Below are positions 181 to 15,741 of a stretch of 64,000 nt of DNA, one piece after another. The notes under the pieces are model-generated. The model was not told the DNA's origin. It searched no databases and saw only the letters and a list, made by a program, of their open reading frames with translations. Both the position numbers and the translations under genes were made by a program. Every line of letters begins with the position of its first letter. The stretch's first letter is position 1. Source of the stretch: Microbacterium oleivorans (GTDB lineage: Bacteria > Actinomycetota > Actinomycetes > Actinomycetales > Microbacteriaceae); assembly GCF_013389665.1 (NCBI RefSeq), contig NZ_CP058316.1, forward strand, positions 1,736,001 to 1,800,000, given 5' to 3'.

Positions 181-196
181 GTCACAGCATCGAAAC
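181..196 (+). promoter_or_regulatory. GlnR-type nitrogen-control box
   Basis: GTCAC-agcatc-GAAAC matches exactly the actinobacterial GlnR half-site pair gTnAC-n6-GaAAC. A weaker second pair follows in phase at 203-219 (GCGAC, then GAAAT one base off). It sits about 115 nt upstream of the ABC importer operon. Binding by GlnR is inferred; no glnR gene is in the window. Confidence 0.55.
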
Positions 197-220: not shown

Positions 221-238
221 TTCAAGCAATAGCTTCAA
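221..238 (+). promoter_or_regulatory. 18-bp dyad operator, purine-locus type
   Basis: TTCAAG-CAATAG-CTTCAA: 6-nt arms matching at five of six positions around a 6-nt spacer. The same geometry (AAG-N6-nTTnA core) recurs at 11034, 13389, 13441 and 15702, each in a promoter of this locus. Likely target of one of the two XRE-cupin regulators (inference). Confidence 0.5.
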
Positions 239-311
239 GCCAGCACCTCCCCGCAGCGGCATCCGTGCACCCGCGCTGCGTTCCTGCACCCGCACACCCG
301 AAGGAGAACCG

Positions 312-1421
312 ATGCCCGTTCCGCGCATCCGGAAACACCGCCTCGCCGCGACGCTGGCCACCGCCGCCGTCGCCGCCCTCGCCCTCTCGGCCTGCTCGAC
401 GAACGCCGCCGAACCCGGCGCCTCGGGCTCCGACGACTCCGCCTCGTTCGGCGAGATCAGCGTGCAGTACTCGTGGATCAAGAACGAGGAGTTCGCCGGC
501 GAGTTCTACGCCTACGAGAACGGCTACTACGACGAAGCCGGCTTCGACGAGGTCATCGGAATCTCCGGACCCGACACCGGTGTCGCGAAGCTGCTGTCGG
601 GCACCGTGCAGGTCGCGCTCTCGGACGCCGCCTCGGTGGGCGCCGCGGTCGCCGAGGAGGAGGCCCCGCTGAAGATCATCGGCGCGACCTTCCAGAAGAA
701 CCCCTTCACGATCCTCTCGCTCGCGGACGGCGGCAACATCACGTCGCCGCAGGACCTCATCGGCAAGACGATCGGCGTCCAGGACTCCAACGCCTCGGTG
801 TTCGCGGCCCTGCTCAACGCCAACGACATCGACCCCAGCCAGGTCACCGTCGTGCCCGTCGACTTCGACCCGACCCCGCTCATGGACGGCCAGGTCGACG
901 GCTTCATGGCCTACCTCACCAACGAGGCGCTGACCGTCGAGCTCGCCGGCTACGAGATCACCAACCTCTCGTACGCCGAGAACGGCGTGCCCTACGTCGC
1001 CGAGACCTTCACCGTCACCGACCAGTACCTCGCCGAGAACGAGGAGCTCCTCAAGGAGTTCCTCATCGCCGAGATCAAGGGCTGGACCCAGGTGTTCCAG
1101 CAGCCCGTCGACGACACCGTCAGCCTGGTGCAGAAGTACTACAACCAGGCCGCCGAGGAGTCGGAGGACGGCCTCGAGGCCGTGTTCGGCGCCCTCGACC
1201 CCGAGAAGACGACGGCCGGCATCGCCGCGCAGAACCTGCTCATCTCGACCGAGGAGACCGAGGCGAACGGCCTGTTCACCATCTCGGACGACCTGAAGCA
1301 GCAGACGGTCGACTCGCTCGCCGCCGCCGGCTGGGAGGTCTCGGTCGACGACCTGTTCGACACCACCATCATCGACGAGATCTACGACGAGAACCCGGAG
1401 CTGCTGAACTACCTCCCGTGA
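312..1421 (+). CDS. NitT/TauT-family ABC importer, substrate-binding lipoprotein
   Basis: A 369-residue lipoprotein that captures the substrate outside the membrane for the importer encoded just downstream. It has a typical lipoprotein signal (Arg/Lys-rich start, hydrophobic stretch, lipobox LSAC with Cys28). The mature part resembles periplasmic-binding-protein type II folds of the NitT/TauT/SsuA/ThiY group ([20 protein letters not shown] region, then a [17 protein letters not shown] hinge). The ATG has a good ribosome site (GAAGGAG, 300-306). The gap to the ATPase gene is 22 nt, so SBP, ATPase and two permeases form one operon. Location and shared operators with the purine genes suggest a purine, ureide or hydantoin-like ligand, but the substrate cannot be read from sequence. 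Confidence 0.85.
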
Positions 1422-1443
1422 GTTCGGACGCTTCCTCCATCAC

Positions 1444-2265
1444 ATGACACACGACGACACCCGGGATGCCGGTGCCCCTCGCGGCACCGGCATCCTGATC
1501 GACGGCCTCAGCAAGACCTTCAGCACCGGCCGCGGCCGGTCGGTGACGGCCCTGCAAGACACCCACCTCCACACCGACAAGGGCTCGTTCCTCGCCCTGC
1601 TCGGCCCCTCGGGGTGCGGCAAGTCCACCATCCTGCGGATCCTCGCCGACCTCGAGAACCCGACCGCGGGCGAGGTCCGCGTCGACGGCAAGACACCCCA
1701 CGAGCTGCGCCGCGACCACGAGCTGGGCATCGCCTTCCAGGACCACGCCCTGCTCCCCTGGCGCAGCGTGCTGGCCAACATCCGCCTGCCCTTCGAGATC
1801 GCTGGCCGCACACCCGACAAGGCCTACATCGATGAGCTCATCGCGCTCGTCGGGCTCACCGGCTTCGAGAAGGCGAAGCCTGCGCAGCTGTCGGGCGGGA
1901 TGCGGCAGCGCGTCTCGATCGCGCGTGCGCTGGCGCTCAAGCCGTCGGTGCTGCTGCTCGACGAGCCGTTCGGCGCGCTCGACGACATGACGCGGCAGAA
2001 CCTCAACCTCGAGCTGCTGCGCATCTGGACCGAGAAGCCAGCGACGACGCTGCTGGTCACCCACGGCATCTCCGAGGCGATCTTCCTCTCCGACCAGGTC
2101 GCGGTCATGTCGCCGCGTCCCGGCCGCGTGGTGGAGATCATCGACGTCGACCTGCCGCGCCCGCGCACGCCCGAGATGATGCGGACCCCCGAGTTCCACG
2201 CGCTGGTCGACCGCGCGTCCGAGCTGCTGTTCGGCAGCGACGGCCGCGCCGACGCGGAGTCGTGA
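1444..2265 (+). CDS. NitT/TauT-family ABC importer, ATPase
   Basis: Cytoplasmic ATP-hydrolysing subunit, 273 residues. Walker A is GPSGCGKST (about residues 56-64), Q-loop [11 protein letters not shown], signature [15 protein letters not shown], Walker [13 protein letters not shown], and H-loop VTHGISEA. The motif order and the LPWR after the Q-loop are typical of SsuB/TauB/ThiZ-like ATPases. The stop overlaps the GTG start of the first permease (GTGA). The start was taken at the ATG 22 nt after the SBP gene; it is followed by a short unconserved leader of about 20 residues. Confidence 0.9.
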
Positions 2266-3071
2266 TGCGCCGCGCCGGAATGCCCACCTGGCTCGCGGGC
2301 GTCATCGGCGCCGTCGTGCTGATCGGCGCCTGGTGGCTGCTGTCGGTCACGGCGTTCTCGCCGCCCGAGGGCACGACCTTCACCCCCGTCCCCTCGCCGT
2401 TCACCGTGTTCGAGACCATCGTCCGCGACGGTCTCGCGCCGTACTGGACGGTGTTCCAGGTCACGATCGGCGAAGCGATGATCGGCTACGCGTGGGGCAA
2501 CGCCATCGCGCTCCTCCTCGCGTCGACGGTGCTGCTCCTCCCCCGCCTCGAAGTCGTCGTCACCCAGATCGCCGTCGTCAGCTACTGCCTGCCCGTCGTC
2601 GCCGTCGGCGGCATCGCGATCGTCGTGCTCGGCGGGGCCAAGCGCGCCGGCGACCCGAGCGCGACCGCGATCTTCCTCGCGGCGCTCGCGGTCTTCTTCA
2701 CCACCGTCGTCGGGGCGCTCCTCGGGTTCAAGGCCGCCGACAAGGCGTCGCTCGACGTCGTGCGCGTGTACGGCGGATCGCGGTGGACGCAGCTGCGCAA
2801 GGTGCGCCTCATCGCCGCCGCCCCCGCCATCCTGAACGCGCTGCAGATCGCGGTGCCGAGCGCCTTCCTCGGGGCGATCCTCGGCGAGTACATGGGCGCC
2901 ATCGACCGGGGCGTAGGCATCACCCTCATCAAGCTGCAGGGCGACCTCGACTCGCCCCGCGTGTGGGCGGTGTTCCTGCTGTCGGCCATCGTCGCCCTCA
3001 TCGGGTACGCGGCCCTCGGCCTCGTCGCGCGTCTCGTGACGCCGTGGGTCTCGGGGAGGTCGGCCGCATGA
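2262..3071 (+). CDS. NitT/TauT-family ABC importer, permease 1
   Basis: Integral membrane permease of 269 residues with about six hydrophobic segments (first at about residues 9-28) and an EAA-type loop in the C-terminal half ([19 protein letters not shown], about residues 168-186). The start is ambiguous between GTG 2262, overlapping the ATPase stop, and ATG 2265 one codon later. Its stop overlaps the ATG of the second permease, so the pair is translationally coupled and probably forms a heterodimeric channel, as the two are only moderately similar. Confidence 0.88.
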
Positions 3072-3871
3072 TCGTCGCCATCCGCCGCTCGCTCGGCCGC
3101 TCCTTGATCAACGCCCTCGCGACCGTGCTCATCGTGCTCGCGCTGTGGTGGGCCGTGGTCAACCTCACGGGCATCTCGACCTACGTCGCCAAGGGACCCG
3201 CCGAGGTGTGGGAGTTCCTGTTCACCGCCGATGACGCCGCCGAGAACCGCATGGACCTCTGGCCGCTCATCGGCCAGACCGTGCAGGACGCCGCTCTCGG
3301 CTTCGGGGTCGGCATGCTCGTCGCGCTCCTGCTCGCCGTGGCGTTCTCGCTGTCGAAGGCGATCGAGGCGGGGGTCATGCCGCTCGCGCTGCTGCTCCGC
3401 TCGGTGCCGCTCGTGGCCATCGCGCCGGTGATCATCCTGATCACGGGCCGCGGCACCGCGGCATCCGTCGCCGTCATCGGCTCGATCGTCGTGCTCTTCC
3501 CCGCTCTCGCCTCGATCCTGTTCGGACTCAGCCGCGCGTCGAAGGAGAGCCTCGACCTCGTGCACGTCTACGGCGGCGGGCGACTGGCCCAGCTGCGCAA
3601 GGTGAGCGTGCCGGGCGCGCTGCCCTCGCTCTTCGCCGCCGCGCGCGTCTCGGTGCCGGGAGCGGTCACCGGCGCGCTGCTGGCGGAGTGGCTGTCGACG
3701 GGTCAGGGCATCGGGGGCATGATCGTGAAGTTCACCGCGACCGCCCGTTTCGACGACCTGTGGGCCTCGGTGGCCATCATCACCCTGCTGACGCTCGTGC
3801 TCTACAACCTCGTGCAGATCGTCGAGACGCTCGTCCTGACCCGCATGGGCATGACGACCTCGGTCGCCTGA
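3068..3871 (+). CDS. NitT/TauT-family ABC importer, permease 2
   Basis: Second permease, 267 residues, starting at the ATG inside the stop of permease 1 (ATGA overlap). It has about six membrane segments and an EAA-type loop (YGGGRLAQLRKVSVPGALPS) nearly matching that of permease 1, so the two are duplicated homologues. It ends the importer operon; 54 nt later the convergent amidohydrolase gene ends. Family members import nitrate, sulfonates, thiamine precursors, riboflavin or pyrimidines; the purine context is the only hint to the substrate here. Confidence 0.88.
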   Translation: MIVAIRRSLGRSLINALATVLIVLALWWAVVNLTGISTYVAKGPAEVWEFLFTADDAAENRMDLWPLIGQTVQDAALGFGVGMLVALLLAVAFSLSKAIEAGVMPLALLLRSVPLVAIAPVIILITGRGTAASVAVIGSIVVLFPALASILFGLSRASKESLDLVHVYGGGRLAQLRKVSVPGALPSLFAAARVSVPGAVTGALLAEWLSTGQGIGGMIVKFTATARFDDLWASVAIITLLTLVLYNLVQIVETLVLTRMGMTTSVA

Positions 3872-3925
3872 CCCCAGGCGGCCGGGCGCGGCTCCCGGGG
3901 TCCAGGCTGCAGCCGCAGGAGGGGG

Positions 3926-5305
3926 TCAGTGGGGGTGGGTGGGGCGGCGGCGCGCGACCTCGGCGAGGGTCTCGTGCAGGCGTGCGGACGCCTCGGCGGC
4001 CAGGGGATTGGTCGACGCCCCGCGATCGTCGACCAGGACGCCGCCGACGTACACCCGCGACAGGTTGCGCGGGCTCATCGCGAGGACGTAGCTGCGCACC
4101 GGGTGCCAGAGCGGGCCGACGTCGGGCCGCCGTGGATCGACGACCACGAAGTCGGCCAGCTTGCCCACCTCGAGCGAGCCGACCCGATCCGCGACACCCA
4201 TGATCTCGGCCGCGCCGAGGGTGTGCAGCCGCAGCACCTGCTCGGGCATCATCGCGAGCGGGTCCTGCAGGCGCGCCCGCTGCTGATAGATGCCCATGCG
4301 CATGTTCTGCCAGGGATCCGAGACATCCGTGCAGGCCTGGTCGTCGAGGCCGATGCCCACCGGCATCCCCTTCGCGAGCATCTCGGGCACCTGGGCCGTG
4401 CCGGACGCCAGGCGACCGTTCGAGGCCGGTTGCCACGACATCGCCGCACCGCCCGCCACGGCCTCGTCGATGATCTCGGGGGTGGTCTGGATGAAATGAC
4501 CGAACACGAGTCCGAGTCCGAGTGCACCGGCATCCCGGTACTGCGCGAACTTCGACCGCTGGTGCTCCACCGCCTCGGGCGATTCGAGGAAGTGCGCCTG
4601 GTTCGTCACGCCGTACCGGCGCATCGCCTCGACCTCGAGCCACGCCGCGTCCTCGCGCGGCGACCACTGCACCTGACCCATGATCGACGCCCCGAGCGCG
4701 TAGTCGGGGTCCATCGATCGCGTGTGCGCGACGGATGCGGCGAAGCGCGCGAAGACGTCGTCGTCGGAGCCGACGGTGACATCCATGCCGATCGCGTCGA
4801 CGAAGCGGATGCCGGCATCGCGCGTTCCGTCGGCCTGGCGCGTGTGATATTCCAGATCGCGCATACGAGCGTTGCCGACGCGCTTGCCGTCGACCATCGA
4901 CTCCCACGACTGCTGCGGGTCGGTGAAGTTGTAGGCGGTCGTCACGCCGTTCGAGAGGAAGTCGAGCGCTCCGTGCAGGGTTGACCAGTACACGTCGTCC
5001 GCGGTCATGTGCGCGGTGGTGCCGAGCATGGCGTCGCACCATCCGTAGAGGGTCTCGCCGACGCCGAGTCCGCGCAGGCCGGACGTGAACAGGTGGGAGT
5101 GACTCGAGACGAAGCCGGGCGCGACGAACGAGCCGGCGGCATCGAGGGTCTCATCGGCGGTCGTGCCCGCAGGCGGGTCTCCGGCGCCGATGGCGGCGAT
5201 GCGCCCGTCATCGCCGACGAGCATCCAGCCCTCTTCGAGGTAGCCGGGATCCTCCGTGCCGGCGGGCATCGTGATGAGGCGGGCGTGGGTCACGAGCAGG
5301 CGCAT
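3926..5305 (-). CDS. Amidohydrolase, guanine/cytosine/8-oxoguanine deaminase group (COG0402)
   Basis: A 459-residue cytosolic metal-dependent hydrolase of the TRZ/ATZ/SsnA group, which deaminates purines, pyrimidines or triazines. Metal ligands are visible: HSH at residues 69-71, a later His in NQAHFLES, a His in VFGHFIQTT, and Asp in GIGLDDQACTD. The C-terminal strand VGSLEVGKLADFVVVDPRRP is the usual composite beta-sandwich return. Length fits the family (about 440-470). The gene is last in the minus-strand catabolic block but has its own apparent promoter. In this setting a purine-ring or 8-oxoguanine-type deaminase feeding xanthine or urate is plausible; the exact substrate is not readable. 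Confidence 0.8.
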   Translation of the reverse strand: MRLLVTHARLITMPAGTEDPGYLEEGWMLVGDDGRIAAIGAGDPPAGTTADETLDAAGSFVAPGFVSSHSHLFTSGLRGLGVGETLYGWCDAMLGTTAHMTADDVYWSTLHGALDFLSNGVTTAYNFTDPQQSWESMVDGKRVGNARMRDLEYHTRQADGTRDAGIRFVDAIGMDVTVGSDDDVFARFAASVAHTRSMDPDYALGASIMGQVQWSPREDAAWLEVEAMRRYGVTNQAHFLESPEAVEHQRSKFAQYRDAGALGLGLVFGHFIQTTPEIIDEAVAGGAAMSWQPASNGRLASGTAQVPEMLAKGMPVGIGLDDQACTDVSDPWQNMRMGIYQQRARLQDPLAMMPEQVLRLHTLGAAEIMGVADRVGSLEVGKLADFVVVDPRRPDVGPLWHPVRSYVLAMSPRNLSRVYVGGVLVDDRGASTNPLAAEASARLHETLAEVARRRPTHPH

Positions 5306-5311
5306 ACCGAC

Positions 5312-5317
5312 ACGCTA
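5312..5317 (-). promoter_or_regulatory. -10 element, leaderless promoter of the amidohydrolase gene
   Basis: On the minus strand TAGCGT is followed by 6 nt and then the ATG at 5305, with no Shine-Dalgarno sequence between. This is the TAnnnT-N6-start layout seen repeatedly in the window. Confidence 0.45.
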
Positions 5318-5394
5318 GCGAGTCCATGTTTCGCCCTCGGGTCAGCGATATTGCGCCCCGCGCGGGCTCGCCGGAAGCGGTCGCGCGCGAGGTG

Positions 5395-6702
5395 TCAGGC
5401 CGTGGCGCGCCGGTCCGCGGCGAGGTGCAGGACCGACTCCGCGAGGGCCCGGATGCCGCGGGCGACGTCGGCGGCGGTGACATCCTCGTCGGGGTGGTGG
5501 CTGATGCCGTCGGGGTTGCGGAGGAACAGCATCCCGATGTCGGTGAGGCCGCCGAGGGCCATCCCGTCGTGCCCGGCACGGCTGAAGATCGCGGGCGGCT
5601 CGTCGGTCACGTCGGCCGTCGCACGGATGCCCTCACGGACGACGTCCTGCAGCAGCGGCGCGCACGCGACGGCAGCGGCGTTGTGGATCTCGCGGTGCTG
5701 CCAGCGCAGGCCCCGCCGGCCCATGATCTCGTCGAGCTCGCTCGTGAGCCGTCGCCAGACCCGGTCGCGCTCACCGTCGAACTCGCCGCGCAGGTCGAGG
5801 GAGAACTGCACCTCGCCGGGCACGATGTTGACCCCGCCGGGGAACGCCTCGAACTGCCCGACCGTCCCGATGATGTGGTGCTCGGCCCGGCAGATCCGCT
5901 CGACCGCGAGCGCCGCCTCGGAAGCGCCGAGGAGGGCGTCGCGGCGCATGTCGTAGGGAGTGCCGCCCGCGTGGCGGGCCTCGCCTTCGACCGTGAGCAG
6001 GAACCGGCGGGCCGACGCGATCGACGACACCACCGCCAGCGATTCGCCCCGCCGGTGCAGCTCGGGTCCCTGCTCGATGTGCGCCTCGAGGTATCCGACG
6101 AGCTCGTCCGGGCGGCGGGCCGCCTCGCCGACCCGGCCGGGGTCGAGCCCGAACTCGCGGAAGGCCTGGGCCAGGGTCGTCCCGTCGGCGTCGGCGAGGT
6201 CCCACCATCCGCCGTCCCAGACGCCGCCGACGGCCGACGACCCGAGCAGCGCCTTTCCGAAGCGCGTGCCCTCCTCGTCCCAGAAGGCGGTGACCTCGAG
6301 CGCGAACGGCAGCGGCGACCGCCACGACGAGCCGTCGTCGGCGGCGGGCTCGCGCAGCATCCGCACGACCTCGATCCCCATCAGGACCCCGACGATGCCG
6401 TCGTACCGTCCCGCGTCCGACACCGTGTCGAGATGCGACCCGATCATGAGCGCGGGGTCGTCGCCGCCGGTGTCGAGCCGGCCCACCTGGTTGCCGGCGG
6501 CGTCCTGGCGCGTGGTCATGCCGACCTCGCGCATCCACTCGGCGGCGAGACGGTTGACGCGCGCGTGCTCGGGCGAGAGGTACACGCGCTCGATGCGGTC
6601 GGGGGCCGCGCTGATGCGCGCGAGGTCGTCGCAGCGCGACATCACCCGTCGTGCCGCATCGGCGATGCGTTCGGGCGCCACGGCGAGCAGAGCGGATGCC
6701 AC
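5395..6702 (-). CDS. Allantoate amidohydrolase / N-carbamoyl amino-acid hydrolase family (M20)
   Basis: A 435-residue binuclear-metal hydrolase of the M20 hydantoinase/carbamoylase branch. Metal-binding motifs are GSHLDTV (His, Asp), YDGIVGV (Asp), DEEGTRFG (paired Glu) and, later, a C-terminal His in NPDGISHHPDEDV; the dimer-domain motif SRAGHDGMAL is also present. In this locus the natural substrate is allantoate, cleaved to ureidoglycine, CO2 and ammonia. The GTG start lies 3 nt after the transaminase stop, so it is the last gene of the allB operon. L-carbamoylases have the same signature, so allantoate specificity comes from context. Confidence 0.82.
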   Translation of the reverse strand: MASALLAVAPERIADAARRVMSRCDDLARISAAPDRIERVYLSPEHARVNRLAAEWMREVGMTTRQDAAGNQVGRLDTGGDDPALMIGSHLDTVSDAGRYDGIVGVLMGIEVVRMLREPAADDGSSWRSPLPFALEVTAFWDEEGTRFGKALLGSSAVGGVWDGGWWDLADADGTTLAQAFREFGLDPGRVGEAARRPDELVGYLEAHIEQGPELHRRGESLAVVSSIASARRFLLTVEGEARHAGGTPYDMRRDALLGASEAALAVERICRAEHHIIGTVGQFEAFPGGVNIVPGEVQFSLDLRGEFDGERDRVWRRLTSELDEIMGRRGLRWQHREIHNAAAVACAPLLQDVVREGIRATADVTDEPPAIFSRAGHDGMALGGLTDIGMLFLRNPDGISHHPDEDVTAADVARGIRALAESVLHLAADRRATA

Positions 6703-6705
6703 GGC

Positions 6706-7944: not shown

Positions 7945-9584
7945 GGGGTGTCCATCCGGGGGTCGAGGAGCGAGAAGAGGCGGCGCGCGAGCCGCACGAG
8001 AGCGAGGTCGGTGCCGGCGCGCGAGACGAGGCCGACGCCGACGGGCGCCGGTCCCAGCGGCGACGGCACGGTGAGCAGCGGCACCGAGATCGCGGGGAGC
8101 CCGGCGACGGCGGCGGGCGTCGTCATCCGCAGTGTGTCACGTCGCAGTGAGTCGAGCGCCTCGCCGCCGGCGGTGCGGGGCGGTGCGGCTCCCGGAACGG
8201 TCGGCAGCAGCAGCACCGCATGCTCGAGGACGGCACGCAGCCGGTCGGCGAGGGGGGCGAGCGCGGCGCGCGCCCGCTTCTCGTCGTCGAGCGTCACGGC
8301 GGCGGCGGAGCGGAAGCGGTCGGCGACGGCGGTTCCCGTCGCATCGGGATGCTGCGTGAGCCACTCGCCGTTGTTGCGCCAGGCCTCGGCGCCCTGCACG
8401 GTGCGGAACGCGTCGAGGTATTCGTCGAGGTCGCCGATCGCGACGTGCTCGACCGAGACCGCCGCGGACGCGAGGCGGTCGAGCAGGTCCGCGAACGCGC
8501 GACGGGTGTCGGGCTCGGCGGCGCCGACGATCTCGTCGGGCACGAGGAGGCGCGTCGGCAGGTCGTCGCCCGACTCGCCGAGCACGCTCTCGGTCGACTC
8601 CGACCCGGTGTAGCTGAGGCACCATCCGGCGACGCGCTCGAGCGTCGCCCCGTCGCGGGTCAGCCAGCCGACGGTGTCGAAGCTCTGCGCGAGGGGCAGC
8701 ATCCCCTGTCTCGGCACGAGGCCGTGCGTCGTCCGCAGGCCCCAGAGCCCCTGGTACGAGGCGGGCACCCGCACCGATCCGGCGGTGTCGGTCGCGAGGG
8801 CGACGTCGGCGTGCCCGGCCGCGACGGCGGATGCCGGCCCGCTCGACGAGCCGCCCGGGAGGGCGCCGGGCAGCGCGGCGTTCGGCGGGGTGCCGTAGTG
8901 GGCGTTGTCGCCGGCCACGGAGTACGCGAATTCGTCGGTGCGTGCGATGCCGCGCAGCGACGCGCCACCGCGCAGCAGGTCACCGACAGCCGGCGCCGTG
9001 GTCGTCTCGGCGCGGGCGGAGTCGAGGAAGGTCGGGTTGCCGGCTCCGATGCGATAGCCGCGGATCGCGAAGAGGTCCTTGACGGCGACGGTCAGCCCGG
9101 CCAGCGGGCCGTCCCACGCGCCCTGGTAGAGCGGGTCGCCGACCGTGCGCCAGATCGAGCGGTCGAACGCCTGCGGGCGCGGGGTCACGTGGGCGGCGGT
9201 GATGAGCCAGCGCCCGTCGATGCGCTGCCAGAGCTGGGTCTGCAGGCCGGTCCCGCCGGCGCCGTAGCGCGAGACCGCGATCAGCAGGGCGACATCGGGT
9301 GCGAGCGGCCGGTACTCGACCCGCTCGATCTCTCGCGCCGCGACCCCGCCGCGTGCCCCGCGGAAGGCGCTGATCGCGTCGTGGCCGACGAGCAGGCCCG
9401 CGGCATCCGCTCGCATCGTGCCGGGTCCGGGAGCGAACGCGGCGTCGAGCGCCGGGAGGTCGTTCTCGACGATGGCGCGCTCGTAGTCGGCGAACGCCGC
9501 CGCGAGATCGGCGGGCATGTCGACGGCCGGGCTGCCGTCGCCCGGGATGCCGTCGGCGGGCGACGTGGCGGCGGAGTCGGTCAC
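7941..9584 (-). CDS. Fusion of AtzH-like (NTF2-fold) domain and amidase-signature hydrolase
   Basis: 547 residues. The first 130 or so form an AtzH/HpxZ-like NTF2-fold domain (DYERAIVENDLPALDAAFAP; LWQRIDGRWLITAAHVTPRP). The rest is an amidase-signature enzyme with the catalytic Lys in VAVKDLF (about residue 168), cis-Ser in GGSSSGPASA (about 245) and nucleophile Ser in TDTAGSVRVPAS (about 264). In Klebsiella hpx clusters HpxY (amidase) and HpxZ (AtzH-like) are separate proteins of the same pathway, so this is a natural fusion. The likely substrate is an acylurea or oxalurate-type product of the PucG step (inference). GTG start at 9584 overlaps the allantoinase stop (GTGA). An allophanate-hydrolase role is an alternative. 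Confidence 0.78.
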   Translation of the reverse strand: MTDSAATSPADGIPGDGSPAVDMPADLAAAFADYERAIVENDLPALDAAFAPGPGTMRADAAGLLVGHDAISAFRGARGGVAAREIERVEYRPLAPDVALLIAVSRYGAGGTGLQTQLWQRIDGRWLITAAHVTPRPQAFDRSIWRTVGDPLYQGAWDGPLAGLTVAVKDLFAIRGYRIGAGNPTFLDSARAETTTAPAVGDLLRGGASLRGIARTDEFAYSVAGDNAHYGTPPNAALPGALPGGSSSGPASAVAAGHADVALATDTAGSVRVPASYQGLWGLRTTHGLVPRQGMLPLAQSFDTVGWLTRDGATLERVAGWCLSYTGSESTESVLGESGDDLPTRLLVPDEIVGAAEPDTRRAFADLLDRLASAAVSVEHVAIGDLDEYLDAFRTVQGAEAWRNNGEWLTQHPDATGTAVADRFRSAAAVTLDDEKRARAALAPLADRLRAVLEHAVLLLPTVPGAAPPRTAGGEALDSLRRDTLRMTTPAAVAGLPAISVPLLTVPSPLGPAPVGVGLVSRAGTDLALVRLARRLFSLLDPRMDTP

Positions 9585-10981
9585 GACGCGTCCTCGCCGA
9601 CGGCGACGAGGGTGCCGCTCCGCGCGAGCAGCCGCCCACCCGGAACGCCGACGGCCTCCGCGGCGCCGGCGTCCGCGCCGATCTCGAACACGACCCGACC
9701 CCGGAGCCAGGTGCGACGCACGCGACCGGTGAGCACCCGGCCGTCGTACGCCGAGATCGGGTTGCGGTGCCGCAACTCGCGGGCGTCGACGCGGACGACG
9801 TCGTCGGGCGCGAAGACGGCGAGGTGCGCGGGAGCGCCCACGGCGATGCGCCCGACGGCGTCGAGGCCCGCGACGGCGGCGGGGCCCGTCGTGAACAGCG
9901 GCAGGATCGTCTCGAGCGGGATGCCCCGGTCTCGCGCCTCGGTCCAGACGGCCGACAGCCCGACCTGCAGCCCCGAGATCCCGCCCCACGCGAGCCCGAA
10001 GTCGCCGTCGCCCGCGCGCTTGAGGTCGACGGTCGAGGGCGAGTGGTCGCTGACGATCGCGTCGATCGTGCCGTCGACGATGCCCTCCCAGAGCAGGTCG
10101 CGGTTCGAGGCCTCGCGGATCGGCGGACAGCACTTGAACTCGGATGCGCCGTCGGGGATGTCCTCGGCGACGATCGTGAGGTAGTGCGGGCACGTCTCGA
10201 CCGTGAGGTCGACGCCGCCCGAGCGGGCTGCGCGGATGGCGGGGAGAGAGCGCGCGTCGCTCAGGTGCAGGATGTGGGCCCGACCCCCGAACTCGCGGGC
10301 CGCGGCGATGACCGCCTCGATCGCGGACGCCTCGCTGGCGGCCGGCCGCGACGCCAGGAACGCGTCGTAGCCCCGGCCGAGGGCGCCGCCGGCCCCGAGC
10401 AGCTCGGGGTCCTCGGCGTGCACGATCAGGCGCGAGCCGAGGTCGGTGATCTCTCGCATCGCGCGGCGCAGCTGAGCGCGGTCGAGGTGGCCGAACTCGT
10501 CGACTCCCGACGGCGCGAGGAAGCACTTGAACCCGTAGACGCCGGCCTCGTGCAACGGGGCGAGGGCGCCGAGGTTCTCGGGCACCGCCCCTCCCCAGAA
10601 GCCGACGTCGACATGGGCGGATGCCTCGGCGGCGGCGCGCTTGACGGCGAGCGCCTCGGCGGTGGTCGTGGGGGGCAGCGAGTTCAGCGGCATGTCGACG
10701 ATCGTCGTGACACCGCCGGCGGCCGCGGCCCGCGTCGCCGAGCCGAAGCCCTCCCACTCGGTGCGGCCGGGTTCGTTGACGTGGACGTGCGAGTCGACCA
10801 GGCCGGGCAGGAGCACCGCGTCGTCGGGGATGCGCACCTCGGCGGCGTCGACGTCGGCGTCCTCGGGCAGGACGGCGGCGATGCGGCCCCCCTCGATCAC
10901 GACGGCCGCCGGGGCGAAGGCCGCGCCGTCGAAGACTCGGCGAGCACGGACGACGACGGGCGGCGGAGGGGATGCGGTCAC
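9581..10981 (-). CDS. allB: Allantoinase
   Basis: 466 residues, cyclic amidohydrolase that opens allantoin to allantoate. Metal centre motifs: GLVDSHVHVNEPGRTEW (HxH), GFKCFLAPSGV (carbamylated Lys), RLIVHAEDPEL (His), AHILHLSDA (His), and Asp in AIVSDHSPS. These match AllB rather than dihydropyrimidinase (GFKCF and SDHSP). The chosen GTG at 10981 has GGGAG about 6 nt upstream and gives the usual family length; an upstream in-frame GTG would add about 14 unconserved residues. It is first of four overlapping or abutting genes (allantoinase, amidase fusion, transaminase, allantoate amidohydrolase). Confidence 0.9.
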   Translation of the reverse strand: MTASPPPPVVVRARRVFDGAAFAPAAVVIEGGRIAAVLPEDADVDAAEVRIPDDAVLLPGLVDSHVHVNEPGRTEWEGFGSATRAAAAGGVTTIVDMPLNSLPPTTTAEALAVKRAAAEASAHVDVGFWGGAVPENLGALAPLHEAGVYGFKCFLAPSGVDEFGHLDRAQLRRAMREITDLGSRLIVHAEDPELLGAGGALGRGYDAFLASRPAASEASAIEAVIAAAREFGGRAHILHLSDARSLPAIRAARSGGVDLTVETCPHYLTIVAEDIPDGASEFKCCPPIREASNRDLLWEGIVDGTIDAIVSDHSPSTVDLKRAGDGDFGLAWGGISGLQVGLSAVWTEARDRGIPLETILPLFTTGPAAVAGLDAVGRIAVGAPAHLAVFAPDDVVRVDARELRHRNPISAYDGRVLTGRVRRTWLRGRVVFEIGADAGAAEAVGVPGGRLLARSGTLVAVGEDAS

Positions 10982-11033
10982 GGAGACTCCCGGGTCGGAT
11001 GGATGCCGCGCGTGCGCGACGCTCACTGTCGGT

Positions 11034-11051
11034 CTAAAGCTATGGGTTAAC
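11034..11051 (-). promoter_or_regulatory. Dyad operator upstream of allantoinase operon
   Basis: CTAAAG-CTATGG-GTTAAC on the plus strand. Its 14-nt core AAGCTATGGGTTAA (11037-11050) is identical to that at 13392-13405 upstream of the NCS1 permease, although the flanks differ. It lies about 55 nt upstream of the allB GTG. Confidence 0.5.
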
Positions 11052-11078
11052 ACGTTACGGGGCGACGCCGCCGCGACG

Positions 11079-11094
11079 GTTACCCCGATGTAAC
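11079..11094 (-). promoter_or_regulatory. GlnR-type box overlapping the racemase 3' end
   Basis: GTTAC-cccgat-GTAAC, which fits gTnAC-n6-GaAAC on either strand with one mismatch. It overlaps the last codons and TAA stop of the racemase gene and precedes the allantoinase operon. A further GTTAC occurs at 11054-11058. Confidence 0.45.
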
Positions 11095-11799
11095 GCTCTC
11101 GTGACGCCGCGGCGGAGGCGCGTACTCCTCGCGCTTGCTCGTGCCCACCCGCATCCGCGCCATCGCCGCGGCGAGTCCGACCGCGGCACCGACCCCGTCC
11201 ACCACGGGAACGCCGACCCGCTCCGTCAGCGCGTGGCAGAGGTCGGCCATCCCGGCGCAGCCGAGCACGATGACGTCGGCCCCGCCCGCCACCTCGGCGG
11301 CGCACAGAGCCGCGATGCGCTCGAAGGCGTCCGACCCGGTGTCCTCCAGGTCGAGCACGGGGATCCCGGAGGCGACGAGCGAGGCGCAGGCCGACGTCAT
11401 CCCGTACCGGGCGAGCAGATCGCGTGCCCGGCCGAGGGTCCGGCCGAGCGTCGTGACCACGGCGAACCGACGGCCGGACAGGGTCGCGACGTGCATCGCG
11501 GCCTCGGCGATGCCGATGACCGGCACATCCACGAGCTCTCGCGCCGCGTCGAGCCCGGGATCACCGAAGCAGGCGACGACGTACGCGTCGCTGCCGCCCG
11601 CGGCGAGGTCGTCCTCGATGAGCTCGACGATCGAGCGCGCAGCGGCGATCTCGTCGAGGTGACTCTCGATCGCGGCCGCCCCGTCGACGGGATGCACCGC
11701 CACGATGTCGACCCCGGGCCCGGCGACCTCCCGCGCGGCGGCGGCGATCTTGTCGGTCATCGCCCGGGAGGTATTGGGGTTGATCAGCGTGATCCTCAC
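11080..11799 (-). CDS. Asp/Glu/hydantoin racemase family, probable allantoin racemase (HpxA-like)
   Basis: 239 residues, typical for HyuE/HpxA. It begins RITLINPNTSRAMT, a near-universal start of the family. The two catalytic Cys are visible: YVVACFGDPGLDAARE (about residue 79) and DVIVLGCAGMADL (about 180). Klebsiella HpxA interconverts allantoin enantiomers, so that allantoinase can use both. The GTG start at 11799 overlaps the permease stop (GTGA), so permease and racemase are cotranscribed. Hydantoin racemase activity is an alternative, but no hydantoinase is nearby. Confidence 0.82.
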   Translation of the reverse strand: MRITLINPNTSRAMTDKIAAAAREVAGPGVDIVAVHPVDGAAAIESHLDEIAAARSIVELIEDDLAAGGSDAYVVACFGDPGLDAARELVDVPVIGIAEAAMHVATLSGRRFAVVTTLGRTLGRARDLLARYGMTSACASLVASGIPVLDLEDTGSDAFERIAALCAAEVAGGADVIVLGCAGMADLCHALTERVGVPVVDGVGAAVGLAAAMARMRVGTSKREEYAPPPRRHESVTSG

Positions 11800-13355
11800 G
11801 CGACGGTCTCCGGCGCGGACTCGGGCAGGGTGCCGTCCGAGATGCCCTCGGTCTCGCCCGCGAACGTCGGGACCTGCCGGTCCCGCCGCTCGAAGAGCAC
11901 GAACGCGGCGAACGCGAGGCCGCATCCGATGAACCAGGTGAAGTTCCCGATCCACGAGACGTCGAACAGCCCCATGTCGGCGAACGTCTTGGGCAGGATC
12001 GCCAGAAGGATCGTGGGGATGCCGGCCACGAGAAGCGTCTTCGTCGCGTTCGGGTTGTAGCCCTTGCGGTACCAGTAGGCCCCGGTCTCGCTCATCGTGA
12101 ACATGTCGTCGGTTCGGATGCGCTGCTTCGCCGCGATGTAGTACCCCGCGATCAGCAGACCGAACAGCGGGCCGATCAAGGCCGCGAGGATGCCGAGCGA
12201 GTAATGGATGGCGGTGGCGTCGGAGTACCAGTTCCAGGGCGTGAGGAACACCGACCCCACGGCGGCGATCATCCCGCCCATGCGCCACGAGATCTTCTGG
12301 GGCGCGACGTTGGAGAAGTCGAAGGCCGGCGCGATGAAGTTGGCGACGATGTTGATGCCGACCGTCGCGGTGACGAACGTCAGCCCGCCCAGCAGGATCG
12401 CGAACGGCGTGTCGATCGCCTCGACGGTGTGGATGGGATCGAGCAGCAGCTCGCCGAAGACCGGCACGGTCGCCGCCGCGGTGAGCACCGTCAGGATCGA
12501 GAAGAACAGGAAGTTCACCGGGAGGCCCCAGAAATTGCCCTTCTTGACCTGGCTGAACGAGCGGCCGTACCGCGCGAAGTCGCCGAAGTTGAGCATCGGG
12601 CCGGCGAAGTAGGCCACCACGATGCCGACCGCCATGGCTATGAGACCGAGGGTGCCCCACAGGTCGTGCGGCGCCGCTGCCGGGTCGGAGAGGTTCAGGT
12701 CGATGTTCTCCCAACCGGCCTGGCTGACGAGGTACACCGCGAGCACGATCATGACGCCGTAGACGGCGGGACCGGCCCAGTCGATGAAGCGGCGGATGAC
12801 CTCCATGCCGTTCCAGAACAGCGCGACCTGCGCGACCCAGAGGATCGAGAACGAGATCCACCCGAGCGCCGAGAGCCCGAGGAAGCTCACGTCGAGAAGA
12901 GCGGCCGAGCCCGGGATGAACTTCAGGAAGATGATGTTCAGCGACTGCGCCGCCAGGAAGGTCTGCACGCCGTACCAGGCGATCGCGATGATGCCCCGGA
13001 TGATCGCGGGGATGTTCGCGCCGCGCACCCCGAAGATGGCGCGGTTCACCACGGGGTACGGCACACCCGTCTTCTGGCTGGGCTTGGCGACCATGTTCGC
13101 GAAGACCTGCACGATCACGATGCCGATCACGAGCGCCACGAGGACCTGCCAGGCCGCGATCCCGAGCGCGAAGAGCGACCCGGCCGTGACGTACCCGCCG
13201 ACCGAGTGCACGTCCGACATCCAGAAGGCGAAGATGTTGTACCAGGTCCACTTCTGCGTGCGGAGCGGAGCGAGATCCTCGTTCGACAGTCGGGGGTCAT
13301 AGCCCCGATCGGGAACCGTCGTCGCGGTGGGCAGGATGTTCGGGGGAGCGGTCAT
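11796..13355 (-). CDS. NCS1 nucleobase/ureide:cation symporter (allantoin/hydantoin-permease type)
   Basis: 519-residue inner-membrane transporter with about 12 membrane segments. Hallmarks of the NCS1 family (Mhp1, PucI): NEDLAPLRTQKWTWYNIFAFWMSD near the N-terminus, IAIAWYGVQTFLAAQSLN in TM3 (Trp and Gln of the substrate site) and the conserved GxxxNxxANFIAPAFDFSN stretch in the middle. Mhp1 carries hydantoins and PucI allantoin. Its translational coupling to the racemase argues for an ureide substrate. ATG start with GGAAGG upstream. The promoter region carries a GlnR-type box and a locus dyad. Confidence 0.87.
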   Translation of the reverse strand: MTAPPNILPTATTVPDRGYDPRLSNEDLAPLRTQKWTWYNIFAFWMSDVHSVGGYVTAGSLFALGIAAWQVLVALVIGIVIVQVFANMVAKPSQKTGVPYPVVNRAIFGVRGANIPAIIRGIIAIAWYGVQTFLAAQSLNIIFLKFIPGSAALLDVSFLGLSALGWISFSILWVAQVALFWNGMEVIRRFIDWAGPAVYGVMIVLAVYLVSQAGWENIDLNLSDPAAAPHDLWGTLGLIAMAVGIVVAYFAGPMLNFGDFARYGRSFSQVKKGNFWGLPVNFLFFSILTVLTAAATVPVFGELLLDPIHTVEAIDTPFAILLGGLTFVTATVGINIVANFIAPAFDFSNVAPQKISWRMGGMIAAVGSVFLTPWNWYSDATAIHYSLGILAALIGPLFGLLIAGYYIAAKQRIRTDDMFTMSETGAYWYRKGYNPNATKTLLVAGIPTILLAILPKTFADMGLFDVSWIGNFTWFIGCGLAFAAFVLFERRDRQVPTFAGETEGISDGTLPESAPETVA

Positions 13356-13388
13356 GGCGTCGGAACCTTCCAGGAGGGGATCTGGAAA

Positions 13389-13406
13389 GTGAAGCTATGG
13401 GTTAAT
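13389..13406 (-). promoter_or_regulatory. Dyad operator upstream of NCS1 permease
   Basis: GTGAAG-CTATGG-GTTAAT on the plus strand, sharing the 14-nt core AAGCTATGGGTTAA with the site at 11037. The right arm is degenerate, but the spacing matches the other four sites. It is 34 nt upstream of the permease ATG, so bound protein could block transcription. Confidence 0.5.
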
Positions 13407-13418
13407 CGGGCCCGCCGG

Positions 13419-13434
13419 GTTTCGCCCATGTAAC
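13419..13434 (-). promoter_or_regulatory. GlnR-type nitrogen-control box
   Basis: Minus strand reads GTTAC-atgggc-GAAAC, an exact gTnAC-n6-GaAAC match, about 64 nt upstream of the permease start. It lies between two locus dyads. Confidence 0.6.
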
Positions 13435-13440
13435 GACGGT

Positions 13441-13458
13441 GTGAAGTTGGAGCTTCAC
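13441..13458 (+). promoter_or_regulatory. Perfect 18-bp dyad GTGAAG-N6-CTTCAC
   Basis: GTGAAG-ttggag-CTTCAC has perfect 6-bp arms. It is placed between the permease and the divergent XRE-cupin gene, about 34 nt ahead of that gene's -10, so it could serve autoregulation as well as repression of the permease. Confidence 0.55.
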
Positions 13459-13491
13459 CCCGTCCGCGGCTGATCACCGCCGCCGCCCGTT

Positions 13492-13497
13492 TAGACT
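13492..13497 (+). promoter_or_regulatory. -10 element, leaderless promoter of XRE-cupin gene 1
   Basis: TAGACT followed by 7 nt and the ATG at 13505; no Shine-Dalgarno sequence lies between. Confidence 0.45.
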
Positions 13498-13504
13498 CGG
13501 CGGC

Positions 13505-14107
13505 ATGTCAGAGCTCGCGCTGGGGACCGGGACAGAGGTGGGCGCCCGGCTGCGAGAGCTGCGACGGCAACGAGGCATGTCGGCGCGCGCCGTCGCCGCC
13601 GCGCTGGGCATCAGCCCCAGCGCGGTGTCGCAGATCGAGCGCGGTGTGCTGCAGCCGAGCGTCTCGCGGCTGCTCGCCATCACCGACGCCCTCGGCGTGC
13701 CCCTCGCCGCCGTGTTCGAGACCGGTGACGGCGCGCCGACCGCGGCGCTCGCGGCGGAGATCGACGGGTTCTCACTGGTCCGCGCCGCCCAGGCGACGAC
13801 GGTCGAGCTCGGCGACGGGGTGACCTTCCGCCGCCTGTCTCCCGGACCGAGCCCGGGCATCGACTACTTCCAGTCGACCTATCCGCCGGGATCGTCGGCC
13901 CACCGCGACTCCGACCTCTTCCGGCACGACGGCTACGAGGTGGGCACCATGCTCTCGGGCGAGCTGACCGTCGATTTCACCGACGAGCGGGTCGTGCTGC
14001 GCCCCGGCGACACGATCAGCTACCCGTGCTCGCGGCCGCACCGCATCCACAACGACGGCGACGAGATCGCCGTCGCGACCTGGCTGATCGTGCATGCGTC
14101 CGCGTGA
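13505..14107 (+). CDS. XRE-family transcriptional regulator with cupin sensor domain (1)
   Basis: 200 residues: an XRE helix-turn-helix at about 12-66 (LRELRRQRGMSARAVAAALG, then SPSAVSQIERGVLQPSVSRL) and a cupin barrel at about 125-195 (HRDSDLFRHDGYEVGTMLSGEL, ending RPHRIHNDGDEIAVATW). Proteins of this form (PuuR and ureide regulators) bind DNA via the N-terminus and sense a small molecule in the cupin. It is divergent from the NCS1 permease and separated by a perfect dyad. It is paralogous to the regulator encoded convergently at 14146-14799. Confidence 0.87.
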   Translation: MSELALGTGTEVGARLRELRRQRGMSARAVAAALGISPSAVSQIERGVLQPSVSRLLAITDALGVPLAAVFETGDGAPTAALAAEIDGFSLVRAAQATTVELGDGVTFRRLSPGPSPGIDYFQSTYPPGSSAHRDSDLFRHDGYEVGTMLSGELTVDFTDERVVLRPGDTISYPCSRPHRIHNDGDEIAVATWLIVHASA

Positions 14108-14145
14108 GCCCGGTCGGGTGCCGTCGCGTGCGACGCGCCGACGCC

Positions 14146-14799
14146 TCAGCGCCCGGTCGGCCCGTCGACCGGCCCCGTCGACCCGACGACCGTGAGCCAC
14201 GTCGCGACCGCGACGCTGTCGGTGCGGTTCGCGACGCGGTGCGGTCGGGATGCCGCGAACGAGAGCGACTCGCCCGGGCCGAGCTCGACCTCGCCGTCGG
14301 CGAACTCGAAGGTGAGCGTGCCCGTCACGACGAGCCCGCTCTCGTAGCCCACGTGCACGAGGAGGCCCCCGTCGACGCTCGAGCTCGCGCCCGGCGGGTA
14401 GGTCGACTCGAAGTGCTCCACACCGCTGATGGGCACGGGCGTGAGCCGCCGGTAGGTGACACCGCCGCCGAGGCGCGCCGTCGTCTCGGCGCCGACCCGG
14501 GCGACGAAGACACCCGGCACCGGCTCGTTCAGCTCGCCGGGGGCATCGGGATCGGGGACCGCTGCGACGGCGTGGTCGTCGAAGATGACCGACACCGGAG
14601 CGCCCAGCACCCCGACGAGCTCGACGAGCCGGTGCACCGACGGCTGCATCGCGCCCGTCTCGATCTGCGACAGCGCGCTGGCCGAGATGCCCATCTCCTG
14701 AGCGACCGAGGCCAGGGAACGCCCCGTCCGGGTGCGCAGCGCCCGCAGGCGGCGCCCGATCGACGCGGGAAGGTCGGGCTCGGCGCGCTGCGGTTCCAC
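14146..14799 (-). CDS. XRE-family transcriptional regulator with cupin sensor domain (2)
   Basis: 217 residues with the same architecture as regulator 1: HTH at about 14-68 (RLRALRTRTGRSLASVAQEMG, SASALSQIETGAMQPS) and a C-terminal cupin (STYPPGASSSVDGG, LVTGTLTFEFADGEVELGPGE, SRPHRVANRTDS). The STYPPG and SRPHR blocks are shared with regulator 1, showing a duplication. The start was set at GTG 14799, where homology begins; an ATG 123 nt upstream would add a divergent extension that runs into the OHCU decarboxylase gene. It is transcribed divergently from the uraD-uraH operon. Confidence 0.82.
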   Translation of the reverse strand: MEPQRAEPDLPASIGRRLRALRTRTGRSLASVAQEMGISASALSQIETGAMQPSVHRLVELVGVLGAPVSVIFDDHAVAAVPDPDAPGELNEPVPGVFVARVGAETTARLGGGVTYRRLTPVPISGVEHFESTYPPGASSSVDGGLLVHVGYESGLVVTGTLTFEFADGEVELGPGESLSFAASRPHRVANRTDSVAVATWLTVVGSTGPVDGPTGR

Positions 14800-14812
14800 G
14801 GCACGATGATAT

Positions 14813-14828
14813 GTAACGCGGGAGAAAC
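14813..14828 (+). promoter_or_regulatory. GlnR-type nitrogen-control box between regulator 2 and uraD
   Basis: GTAAC-gcggga-GAAAC is an exact gTnAC-n6-GaAAC match. A second pair, GTGAC-n6-GTGAC, follows at 14832-14847, just before the uraD ATG at 14852. No copy of the locus dyad is seen here. Confidence 0.58.
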
Positions 14829-14851
14829 GCGGTGACAGTACCGTGACCCGC

Positions 14852-15361
14852 ATGCACCTCGACGAGTTCCACGCCCTGAGCGCGGACGAGGCCCGACGCG
14901 TCGTCGCCGTCTGGGCCCCCATCCCCCGCTGGGTCGAGACCCTGATCGCGGGGCGGCCCTATCGCGACGTCGCGGAGCTGAGCGCCCGGGCACGCGCCGA
15001 GGCGGCCCACTGGAACGACGACGACCTCGACGCCGCGCTCGCGCATCATCCGCGCATCGGCGCCCGCGTCGACGAGCCGGGCGCCGAGGGCGACGCGTCG
15101 CGATCCGAGCAGGCCGCGATGCGGTCGGCATCCGATGACGACACCGCCGCGATCGCCGCGGGCAACCGGCGCTACGAGGAGCGATTCGACCGCGTCTTCC
15201 TCATCCGGGCGGCCGGCCGGACCCCGGGCGAGATGCGGGCCGAGCTCGAGCGGCGCCTCGGCAACGACGACCGCAGCGAGACGGCCGAGGCCCTCGGCCA
15301 GCTCGCCGAGATCGCGCTGCTCCGCCTGTCGCAGACCGTCACCGAGGAGGCGCCGGCATGA
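14852..15361 (+). CDS. uraD: 2-oxo-4-hydroxy-4-carboxy-5-ureidoimidazoline (OHCU) decarboxylase
   Basis: 169 residues, all-helical enzyme producing (S)-allantoin from OHCU. Conserved: FHALSADEA, PIPRWVETLIAGRPY, AALAHHPRIGAR (catalytic HHP-IG, about residues 67-74), SEQAAM, NRRYEERFDRVFLIRAAGR (typical Y-x-x-xFGxxFI-like block) and the C-terminal ELERRLGNDDRSET. The ATG at 14852 is preferred over GTG 14843. Its stop overlaps the uraH ATG by 4 nt. Confidence 0.92.
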   Translation: MHLDEFHALSADEARRVVAVWAPIPRWVETLIAGRPYRDVAELSARARAEAAHWNDDDLDAALAHHPRIGARVDEPGAEGDASRSEQAAMRSASDDDTAAIAAGNRRYEERFDRVFLIRAAGRTPGEMRAELERRLGNDDRSETAEALGQLAEIALLRLSQTVTEEAPA

Positions 15362-15678
15362 CCCACCTGACCACCCACGTGCTGGACGCCTCGACCGGCA
15401 CGCCCGCGGTCGAGGTGAGGATCGAGCTCGCCGACGCCCGGGGAGGCGTCATCGCGACGGGCTCGACCGACACCGACGGACGGCTCGCCCTCGGACCCGA
15501 GCGACTCGAGCCGGGCGTCTACTCGCTGACGTTCGACACCGGCGGGCACTTCGCCCGGACCGGCACCGCGACCTTCTACCCGTCCGCGACCGTCAGCTTC
15601 ACCGTCGGCGACGAGCCCCATGTGCACGTGCCGCTGCTGCTGAGCCCGTTCGGCTACTCCACCTACCGCGGCAGCTGA
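15358..15678 (+). CDS. uraH: 5-hydroxyisourate hydrolase (transthyretin-like)
   Basis: 106 residues, expected size for the family. It begins LTTHVLDASTGTPAVEV with the active-site His, contains the Arg in VRIELAD and the His in VHVPLLLSPFGYSTYRGS, and ends with the diagnostic YRGS tetrapeptide. It hydrolyses the HIU made by urate oxidation and feeds UraD, encoded immediately upstream with a 4-nt overlap. Confidence 0.95.
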   Translation: MTHLTTHVLDASTGTPAVEVRIELADARGGVIATGSTDTDGRLALGPERLEPGVYSLTFDTGGHFARTGTATFYPSATVSFTVGDEPHVHVPLLLSPFGYSTYRGS

Positions 15679-15701
15679 TCGGCAAGCAGCCACCGCGGCA
15701 C

Positions 15702-15741
15702 GTTAAGTACTGGCTTAACAGGTTCGTTACACGGGCTTCAC
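15702..15741 (+). promoter_or_regulatory. Composite control region: perfect dyad plus GlnR-like pentamers
   Basis: GTTAAG-tactgg-CTTAAC (15702-15719) is a perfect 6-6-6 dyad of the locus type. TTAAC (15715), GTTAC (15726) and TTCAC (15737) follow at exact 11-nt steps, the spacing of GlnR half-sites, though only the middle one fits consensus well. It lies 72-111 nt upstream of the second importer operon. Confidence 0.5.

Follow-up and report, generated by a model that had tools for sequence, protein, structure and literature searches.

Candidate operators of two paralogous XRE-cupin regulators in a purine and allantoin utilisation cluster of Microbacterium oleivorans

The window analysed here, a 64,000-nucleotide stretch of the Microbacterium oleivorans genome (contig NZ_CP058316.1, positions 1,736,001 to 1,800,000), carries a purine/allantoin utilisation cluster in its first 20 kb. 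Five inverted repeats of 6-6-6 form (dyads) lie in this cluster together with the genes of two XRE-cupin regulators, XRE1 (13505-14107, + strand; recognition helix ...SAVSQIERG) and XRE2 (14146 to about 14799, - strand, start approximate; recognition helix ...SALSQIETG). We propose that the dyads are probably the operators of these two paralogous regulators, with XRE1 reading GTGAAG-N6-CTTCAC, XRE2 reading mainly GTTAAG-N6-CTTAAC, and repression by both being combined with activation by GlnR. Site positions, conservation, co-occurrence with the regulator, covariation of site type with paralogue, and the presence of GlnR were computed in support; from these we infer actual binding, repression over activation, a ligand, and a division of labour in this genome. 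The first-pass annotation had proposed a single candidate private operator for the purine genes. The dyads do behave as an XRE-cupin operator, but rather than one shared operator we found two sub-types that track the paralogues, together with a mixed site.

All five dyads and both mid-locus regulator genes were found where the first-pass annotation had placed them. Two of the dyads are perfect, GTGAAG-ttggag-CTTCAC at 13441-13458 (+; XRE1 type) and GTTAAG-tactgg-CTTAAC at 15702-15719 (+; XRE2 type), the latter upstream of the second substrate-binding protein gene, SBP2. The dyad at 13389-13406 (-), GTGAAG-ctatgg-GTTAAT, lies at the promoter of the NCS1 transporter gene, 52 bp from the dyad at 13441; it reads ATTAAC-ccatag-CTTCAC on the NCS1 strand and is mixed, one half being of XRE2 type and the other of XRE1 type. 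CTAAAG-ctatgg-GTTAAC at 11034-11051 (-; GTTAAC-ccatag-CTTTAG on the gene strand), upstream of the allantoinase-like gene AllB, is of XRE2 type, and shares AAGCTATGGGTTAA with the dyad at 13389, 2355 bp away. The fifth, TTCAAG-caatag-CTTCAA at 221-238 (+), precedes the substrate-binding protein gene SBP1 and is identical in a second genome, G631. With the gene starts assigned in this analysis all five dyads are intergenic, and the genes downstream of them encode SBP1, the allantoinase-like protein, the NCS1 permease, XRE1, and SBP2.

The pattern TNAAGN6STTNA, which was derived from the same five sites, gave eight strand-matches at five places in the window versus 0.16 +/- 0.49 expected from 100 dinucleotide shuffles, none of which reached eight. 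Genome-wide (3.35 Mb) it gave 14 strand-matches at eight places, with 23 strand-matches for the reversed pattern; five places are in the window, and the three elsewhere are all inside long open reading frames. The stricter GTKAAGN6CTTMAC has only two exact matches in the genome, both in the window, and one further place with one mismatch. When up to two mismatches were allowed, 105 matches per strand were found, fewer than for the reversed control (137), so that weak matches are uninformative and the strong ones alone count. By this search the dyads are private to the locus, as had been claimed, and the motif is not scattered over unrelated promoters.

The sites were compared across related genomes, a check that the first-pass annotation had suggested. 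In the first set of genomes examined, an XRE1 orthologue of about 60-71% identity is present in 30 of 197 other genomes of the genus, and the window locus was compared with those of 29 of these 30 genomes (L001-L030). A dyad lies upstream of XRE1 in all 30 loci, as a pair spaced by 52 bp in 26, by 53 bp in one and by 25 bp in one, and as a single site in two; the dyad search gave 58 sites in these loci versus 3 on reversed sequences. A strict GlnR-like box lies between the paired dyads in 20 of the 30. Across the 26 loci with 52-bp spacing, the dyad arms and GlnR half-boxes are 96-99% conserved, the spacers 72-89%, and the gap and flanks 60-75%. The strict pair (spacing 51-53 bp) occurs in 49 of 366 genus genomes, in every case with an XRE1 match 45-169 bp away (63 bp in G651), and the reversed strict-pair pattern has no occurrence in these 366 genomes. 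Among the best 80 kept of the 205 relatives found in a wider collection, all 80 loci have a dyad upstream of the regulator, versus 4 of 80 on reversed stretches, and XRE1 is divergent to NCS1 and racemase genes in all 42 loci with listed neighbours. Because relatives share the dyad and this divergent arrangement, XRE1 appears to have been associated with the permease-racemase cassette for a long time.

Variants of the XRE1 operator were also seen. XRE1-like regulators at L148-L151 and at several Cellulomonas loci (L214-L233) are accompanied by GTGAA(C/T)-type dyads, many of them spaced by 41 bp, with a third dyad in some cases; this is an alternative arrangement of the operator. L058 (at 6086), L143 (at 12159, just upstream of UraD) and L200 (about 584 bp after the gene start) each contain one more XRE1-type dyad, outside the NCS1/XRE1 promoter, which suggests further targets in some species.

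The sub-types of the dyad were resolved by comparing genomes that carry only one of the two regulators. Either regulator was found in 85 genomes of the genus, and both in only four (G000, the window's own genome, G631, G542, and G637). In XRE1-only genomes the site is GTGAAG-N6-CTTCAC, in most cases as two copies at a distance of 52 bp with a GlnR-type box between them, and XRE2-only genomes favour GTTAAG-N6-CTTAAC. In a count over single-paralogue rows that are not phylogenetically independent, with two-paralogue genomes and five XRE2-like rows of other families left out, 33 of 33 XRE1-only regulators have a site, and 121 of their 124 half-sites carry G at position 3; 16 of 20 XRE2-only regulators have one, and position 3 of their 62 half-sites is T in 45, A in 7, C in 3 and G in 7. 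XRE2-type sites precede SBP2/XRE2 or a different NCS1 gene and, in several XRE2-only relatives, the allantoinase gene AllB. In the window and in G631, which contain the two regulators, the promoter of XRE1 has a G-type site and that of NCS1 a mixed one, and T/A-type sites precede SBP2 and the allantoinase gene; M. arborescens DSM 20754, from another collection, has the two regulators side by side with the same mixed-plus-perfect dyad pair. Judged by these comparisons, the site sub-type tracks the paralogue in single-paralogue genomes, which makes the dyads two related candidate operators rather than one, and this suggests that the two paralogues have diverged, each towards a form of the site that is its own.

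The same adjacency would be expected if a third, unlinked transcription factor bound the dyads and the XRE genes were merely regulated neighbours. We regard this as very unlikely, since the site type changes with the XRE paralogue, the strict pair is found solely beside XRE1 in 366 genomes, and the link between dyad and XRE gene recurs in several actinobacterial genera beyond Microbacterium.

Within Micrococcales, the difference between the paralogues at residue 46 (Arg in SQIERG, Thr in SQIETG) corresponds to G or T/A, respectively, at half-site position 3. After removal of near-identical regulators, keeping the copy with most sites from each set, Arg46 regulators have G in 175 of 184 half-sites upstream and in 2 of 4 downstream, and Thr46 regulators have it in 9 of 82, both locations together. 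Residues 41 and 38 are decoupled from this correspondence. Residue 46 as a general single-residue code was rejected, as T-type sites accompany SQIERG at 12 of the 80 wider loci (Herbidospora, Nonomuraea, Microbispora, and Streptomyces) and 3 more loci have mixed sites; with the wider rows added, residue 46 drops to ninth among columns up to residue 80 (class counts leaving out the rows of the window, G631 and M. arborescens). Residue 46 is outperformed in separating the site classes by some cupin columns (175, 133, and 108), and hence phylogeny confounds everything in this comparison. A parallel to residue 46 in SinR Arg36 was looked for and not found, and for the residues of C.Esp1396I, as far as the available source describes them, no mapping to residue 46 was achieved.

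It is conceivable, but in our judgement unlikely, that both XRE-cupin proteins read all five dyads without preference, position 3 being neutral and the sub-types reflecting lineage. Such neutrality fits poorly with the occurrence of G at position 3 in 121 of 124 half-sites beside XRE1 alone versus 7 of 62 beside XRE2 alone, and with the presence of both site types in G000 and G631 at those promoters where single-paralogue relatives would lead one to expect them. On the other hand, it would be favoured by the use of GTTAAG...CTTCAC/T sites in XRE2-only relatives, by a Streptosporangiales Arg46 regulator paired with GTTAAG-N6-CTTAAC, and by the scarcity of independent switches between Arg and Thr at residue 46. 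In the phylogenetic test, from which, as from the column analyses, the long-branched L095 was left out, there was one pair of such switches on supported branches and two on all branches, too few for significance, and a single origin of Thr46 together with XRE2 was not rejected (p-AU 0.094).

These two phylogenetic results weigh against the assignment of one operator sub-type to each paralogue, and so do several properties of individual genomes. Four of the 20 XRE2-only regulators (L112, L115, L116, and L158) have no adjacent site, and for four of the 20 XRE2-only genomes (G491, G616, G658, and G645) the absence of XRE1 comes from one search that missed XRE1 in G637. The strict pair is absent in 16 of 65 genomes with a known XRE1; of the 10 of these examined for site layout, mixed sites are present in four (the window, G631, G179 and G600), the window lacking the strict pair because its NCS1-proximal dyad is mixed, and a lone site or some different arrangement in five. 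G179 and G600 have their mixed sites despite carrying XRE1 alone. In G542 the two paralogues are on separate contigs and the XRE1-type pair is kept, and in G637, which also has both, no recognisable dyad was found between XRE1 and NCS1. Lastly, the site at 221 fits neither sub-type well and might be read by either paralogue, and no dyad was found before SBP1 in the XRE2-only G100 (L061), the sole further SBP1 promoter compared besides that of G631.

Three sister genomes appear to illustrate how such a pair of operators may change hands. G653, G522 and G569 encode an XRE2 that is 86-88% identical to that of the window and an NCS1 permease that is 89-93% identical, and no XRE1 was found in them. 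Of the XRE1-proximal dyad, the right half (CTTCAC, a short distance before CGTCGTTAC) is still present between their XRE2 and NCS1 genes, the left half being gone, and their NCS1 dyad is GTTAAG-N6-CTTCAT, with a full XRE2 half, versus ATTAAC-N6-CTTCAC in the window. The simplest reading would be deletion of XRE1 followed by take-over of the NCS1 promoter by XRE2, loss being taken as the direction because XRE1 adjoins NCS1 in outgroups. A bolder reading, which we offer only as a tentative one, is that the locus represents a duplicated repressor-operator pair in the course of being insulated and rewired, that XRE1 and XRE2 are distinguished by a recognisable operator code, that the mixed dyad at 13389 is read by both proteins, perhaps as a heterodimer, and that relatives deleting XRE1 have handed the promoter to XRE2 by a few base changes. 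If a heterodimer does act at 13389, the allantoin transporter would be a two-signal AND gate on top of GlnR. As far as the available text goes, Poelwijk et al. 2006 (PMC1464816), on duplicated repressor-operator pairs, simulated lac mutants, with the operators diverging together; the present case likewise would have paralogous repressors with co-diverging operators, here in natural single, double and reduced states. With genomes containing XRE1 only, XRE2 only, both, or an apparently lost XRE1, stepwise divergence of repressors and operators would become testable with natural sequences.

In the mechanism that we propose, the targets of XRE1 would be GTGAAG-N6-CTTCAC sites in the divergent promoter region of NCS1 and XRE1, where a pair spaced by 52 bp, or about five helical turns, encloses a GlnR box. 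XRE2 would bind mainly GTTAAG-N6-CTTAAC, in front of the allantoinase gene and SBP2, and the site before NCS1 would be part XRE1 and part XRE2. The dyads at 13389, 11034 and 221 lie over a putative -10 element TAGCTT of NCS1, AllB and SBP1, respectively, and would likely mediate repression by blocking RNA polymerase; the alternative to covering the -10 element would be repression from dyads that flank the GlnR site. Repression would be relieved once the cupin domain binds a purine-pathway metabolite, and GlnR would switch the promoters on under nitrogen limitation. XRE1 and XRE2 could instead be activators, or each could be both, the core promoters of XRE1 and SBP2 being downstream of their dyads. 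Neither the dyad at 13441 nor that at 15702 overlaps a -10-like TAGCTT, which would suit activation, but we consider activation improbable given that at three of the five sites the dyad covers a -10-like TAGCTT oriented towards the gene and that a TARCTT -10-like element lies within the NCS1-proximal dyad in 29 of the 30 loci L001-L030. The putative -10 element of XRE1 itself, TAGACT at 13492-13497 (+), is 7 bp before the XRE1 ATG, and TAGACT is found shortly 5' of an ATG in 19 of 30 other rows of the locus comparison.

The combination of dyads with GlnR boxes, also noted in the first-pass annotation, was borne out: GTNAC-N6-GNAAC has five strand-matches at four places in the window versus 0.89 expected, three of them beside dyads, and genome-wide it has 37 strand-matches versus 10 for the reversed pattern. 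GTCAC-agcatc-GAAAC at 181-196 (+), identical in G631, is 24 bp before the dyad at 221. GTTAC-atcggg-GTAAC at 11079-11094 is upstream of AllB, and GTTAC-N6-G(T/A)(A/G)AC is found at the matching position in G631, G569, G522 and G653. GTTAC-atgggc-GAAAC at 13419-13434 (-) lies between the two paired dyads, 12 bp upstream of the NCS1 dyad that covers the -10 element; this layout would suit an activator (GlnR) placed upstream of a repressor. The fourth, GTAAC-gcggga-GAAAC at 14813-14828 (+), is between XRE2 and UraD, where there is no dyad. In addition, GTTAC-acgggc-TTCAC at 15726-15741 (+) is located 6 bp after the SBP2 dyad, and GTTAC-N6-TTCAC exactly 6 bp after an XRE2-type dyad also occurs in G631 (L125), L061, L063, L069 and L137; it may be a degenerate GlnR box or the site of another factor.

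A GlnR orthologue is encoded on contig C1 of G000 near 727.7-728.4 kb (L250:1078-1773), as one of 14 OmpR-type proteins in the genome. Residues 3-112 of this protein match 4o1h ('Transcription regulator GlnR') at 7e-26, and almost the full length matches the generically named 8hih (residues 2-215, 6e-76) and 8hig (2-224, 4e-73), both of which we take to be GlnR. The locus resembles the GlnR regulon of actinomycetes in that the regulator is encoded in the genome and in having boxes that agree with the consensus gTnAc-n6-GaAAc, as given in the available part of a review (PMC10704036). Unlike in the regulon as described there, the box here is combined with a pathway-specific dyad in an interleaved arrangement of conserved spacing, and the word allantoin was not found in the main text of that review, in so far as it was available.

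XRE1 and XRE2 share 46% identity and are the sole full-length XRE-cupin matches in the genome. In both, an N-terminal HTH_3 domain (60.6 and 37.4 bits) and a C-terminal Cupin_2 domain (52.8 and 42.4 bits) are above curated cut-offs. An inverted-repeat operator beside the regulator's own gene is present at XRE1; no dyad was found at XRE2's own promoter in the window, where some XRE2-only relatives have one. H141, E145, H179 and N183 are invariant in 11 aligned XRE-cupin members, which suggests that the cupin domain binds its ligand through a metal, and the most paralogue-specific columns include the cupin-domain positions 175 (C/A) and 133 (H/S); these differences would fit different ligands for the two proteins, but ancestry confounds them. 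PuuR, a putrescine-linked regulator with its own operator site, has the same domain order and is the best NCBIfam match of both (NF007408), at 65.3 and 49.1 bits, below the equivalog cut-off of 211 bits. Unlike PuuR, XRE1 and XRE2 are linked to purine/allantoin genes, with another operator. Purine and allantoin genes are known to be controlled by PucR, AllR and HpxU, catabolic regulators of other protein families that respond to pathway signals; XRE1 and XRE2 share this pathway logic but, to our knowledge, not the protein family.

In the full-text literature, whose coverage excludes most subscription journals, no prior description of XRE-cupin regulators of allantoin/purine genes was found; the nearest matches, as far as the accessible excerpts go, concern a Pseudomonas phage-related regulator (PMC9769523), nucleobase transport, and photoreceptors. 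The dyads would appear to be new operators for a known kind of regulator, and the genomes an unusually clean comparative series on the parting of paralogous repressors and their sites. If our proposal is true, purine (allantoin) catabolism in Microbacterium and other actinobacteria would have a pathway regulator with a defined operator, which would explain the combination of pathway regulation with nitrogen control.

The cluster around the dyads comprises the ATP-binding cassette (ABC) transporter set of SBP1 (312-1421, +), which is followed by an ATPase and two permease genes, a guanine/8-oxoguanine deaminase-related amidohydrolase and an allantoate amidohydrolase-like protein; a class-V aminotransferase (PucG-like) and an amidase with an AtzH-like domain are also present. 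On the minus strand are AllB (9581-10981, with the start assigned in this analysis), a racemase of the Asp/Glu/hydantoin family (11080-11799, start approximate) that is related to allantoin racemase and close to allantoin/hydantoin racemases of known structure, and the NCS1 permease (11796-13355) of allantoin/hydantoin type, close to Mhp1. In L138 (G637), the NCS1 tblastn match at 4443-5922 is split into two adjacent pieces, possibly a decaying cassette. Beyond XRE1 and XRE2 are UraD, HIU hydrolase, a second ABC set with SBP2 (15813-16766, +), and an HpxO-like enzyme that is FAD-dependent. Family and context are the basis of the names PucG, AllB and HpxO. Among the ten cluster proteins scored, UraD and HIU hydrolase are above curated NCBIfam equivalog-type cut-offs.

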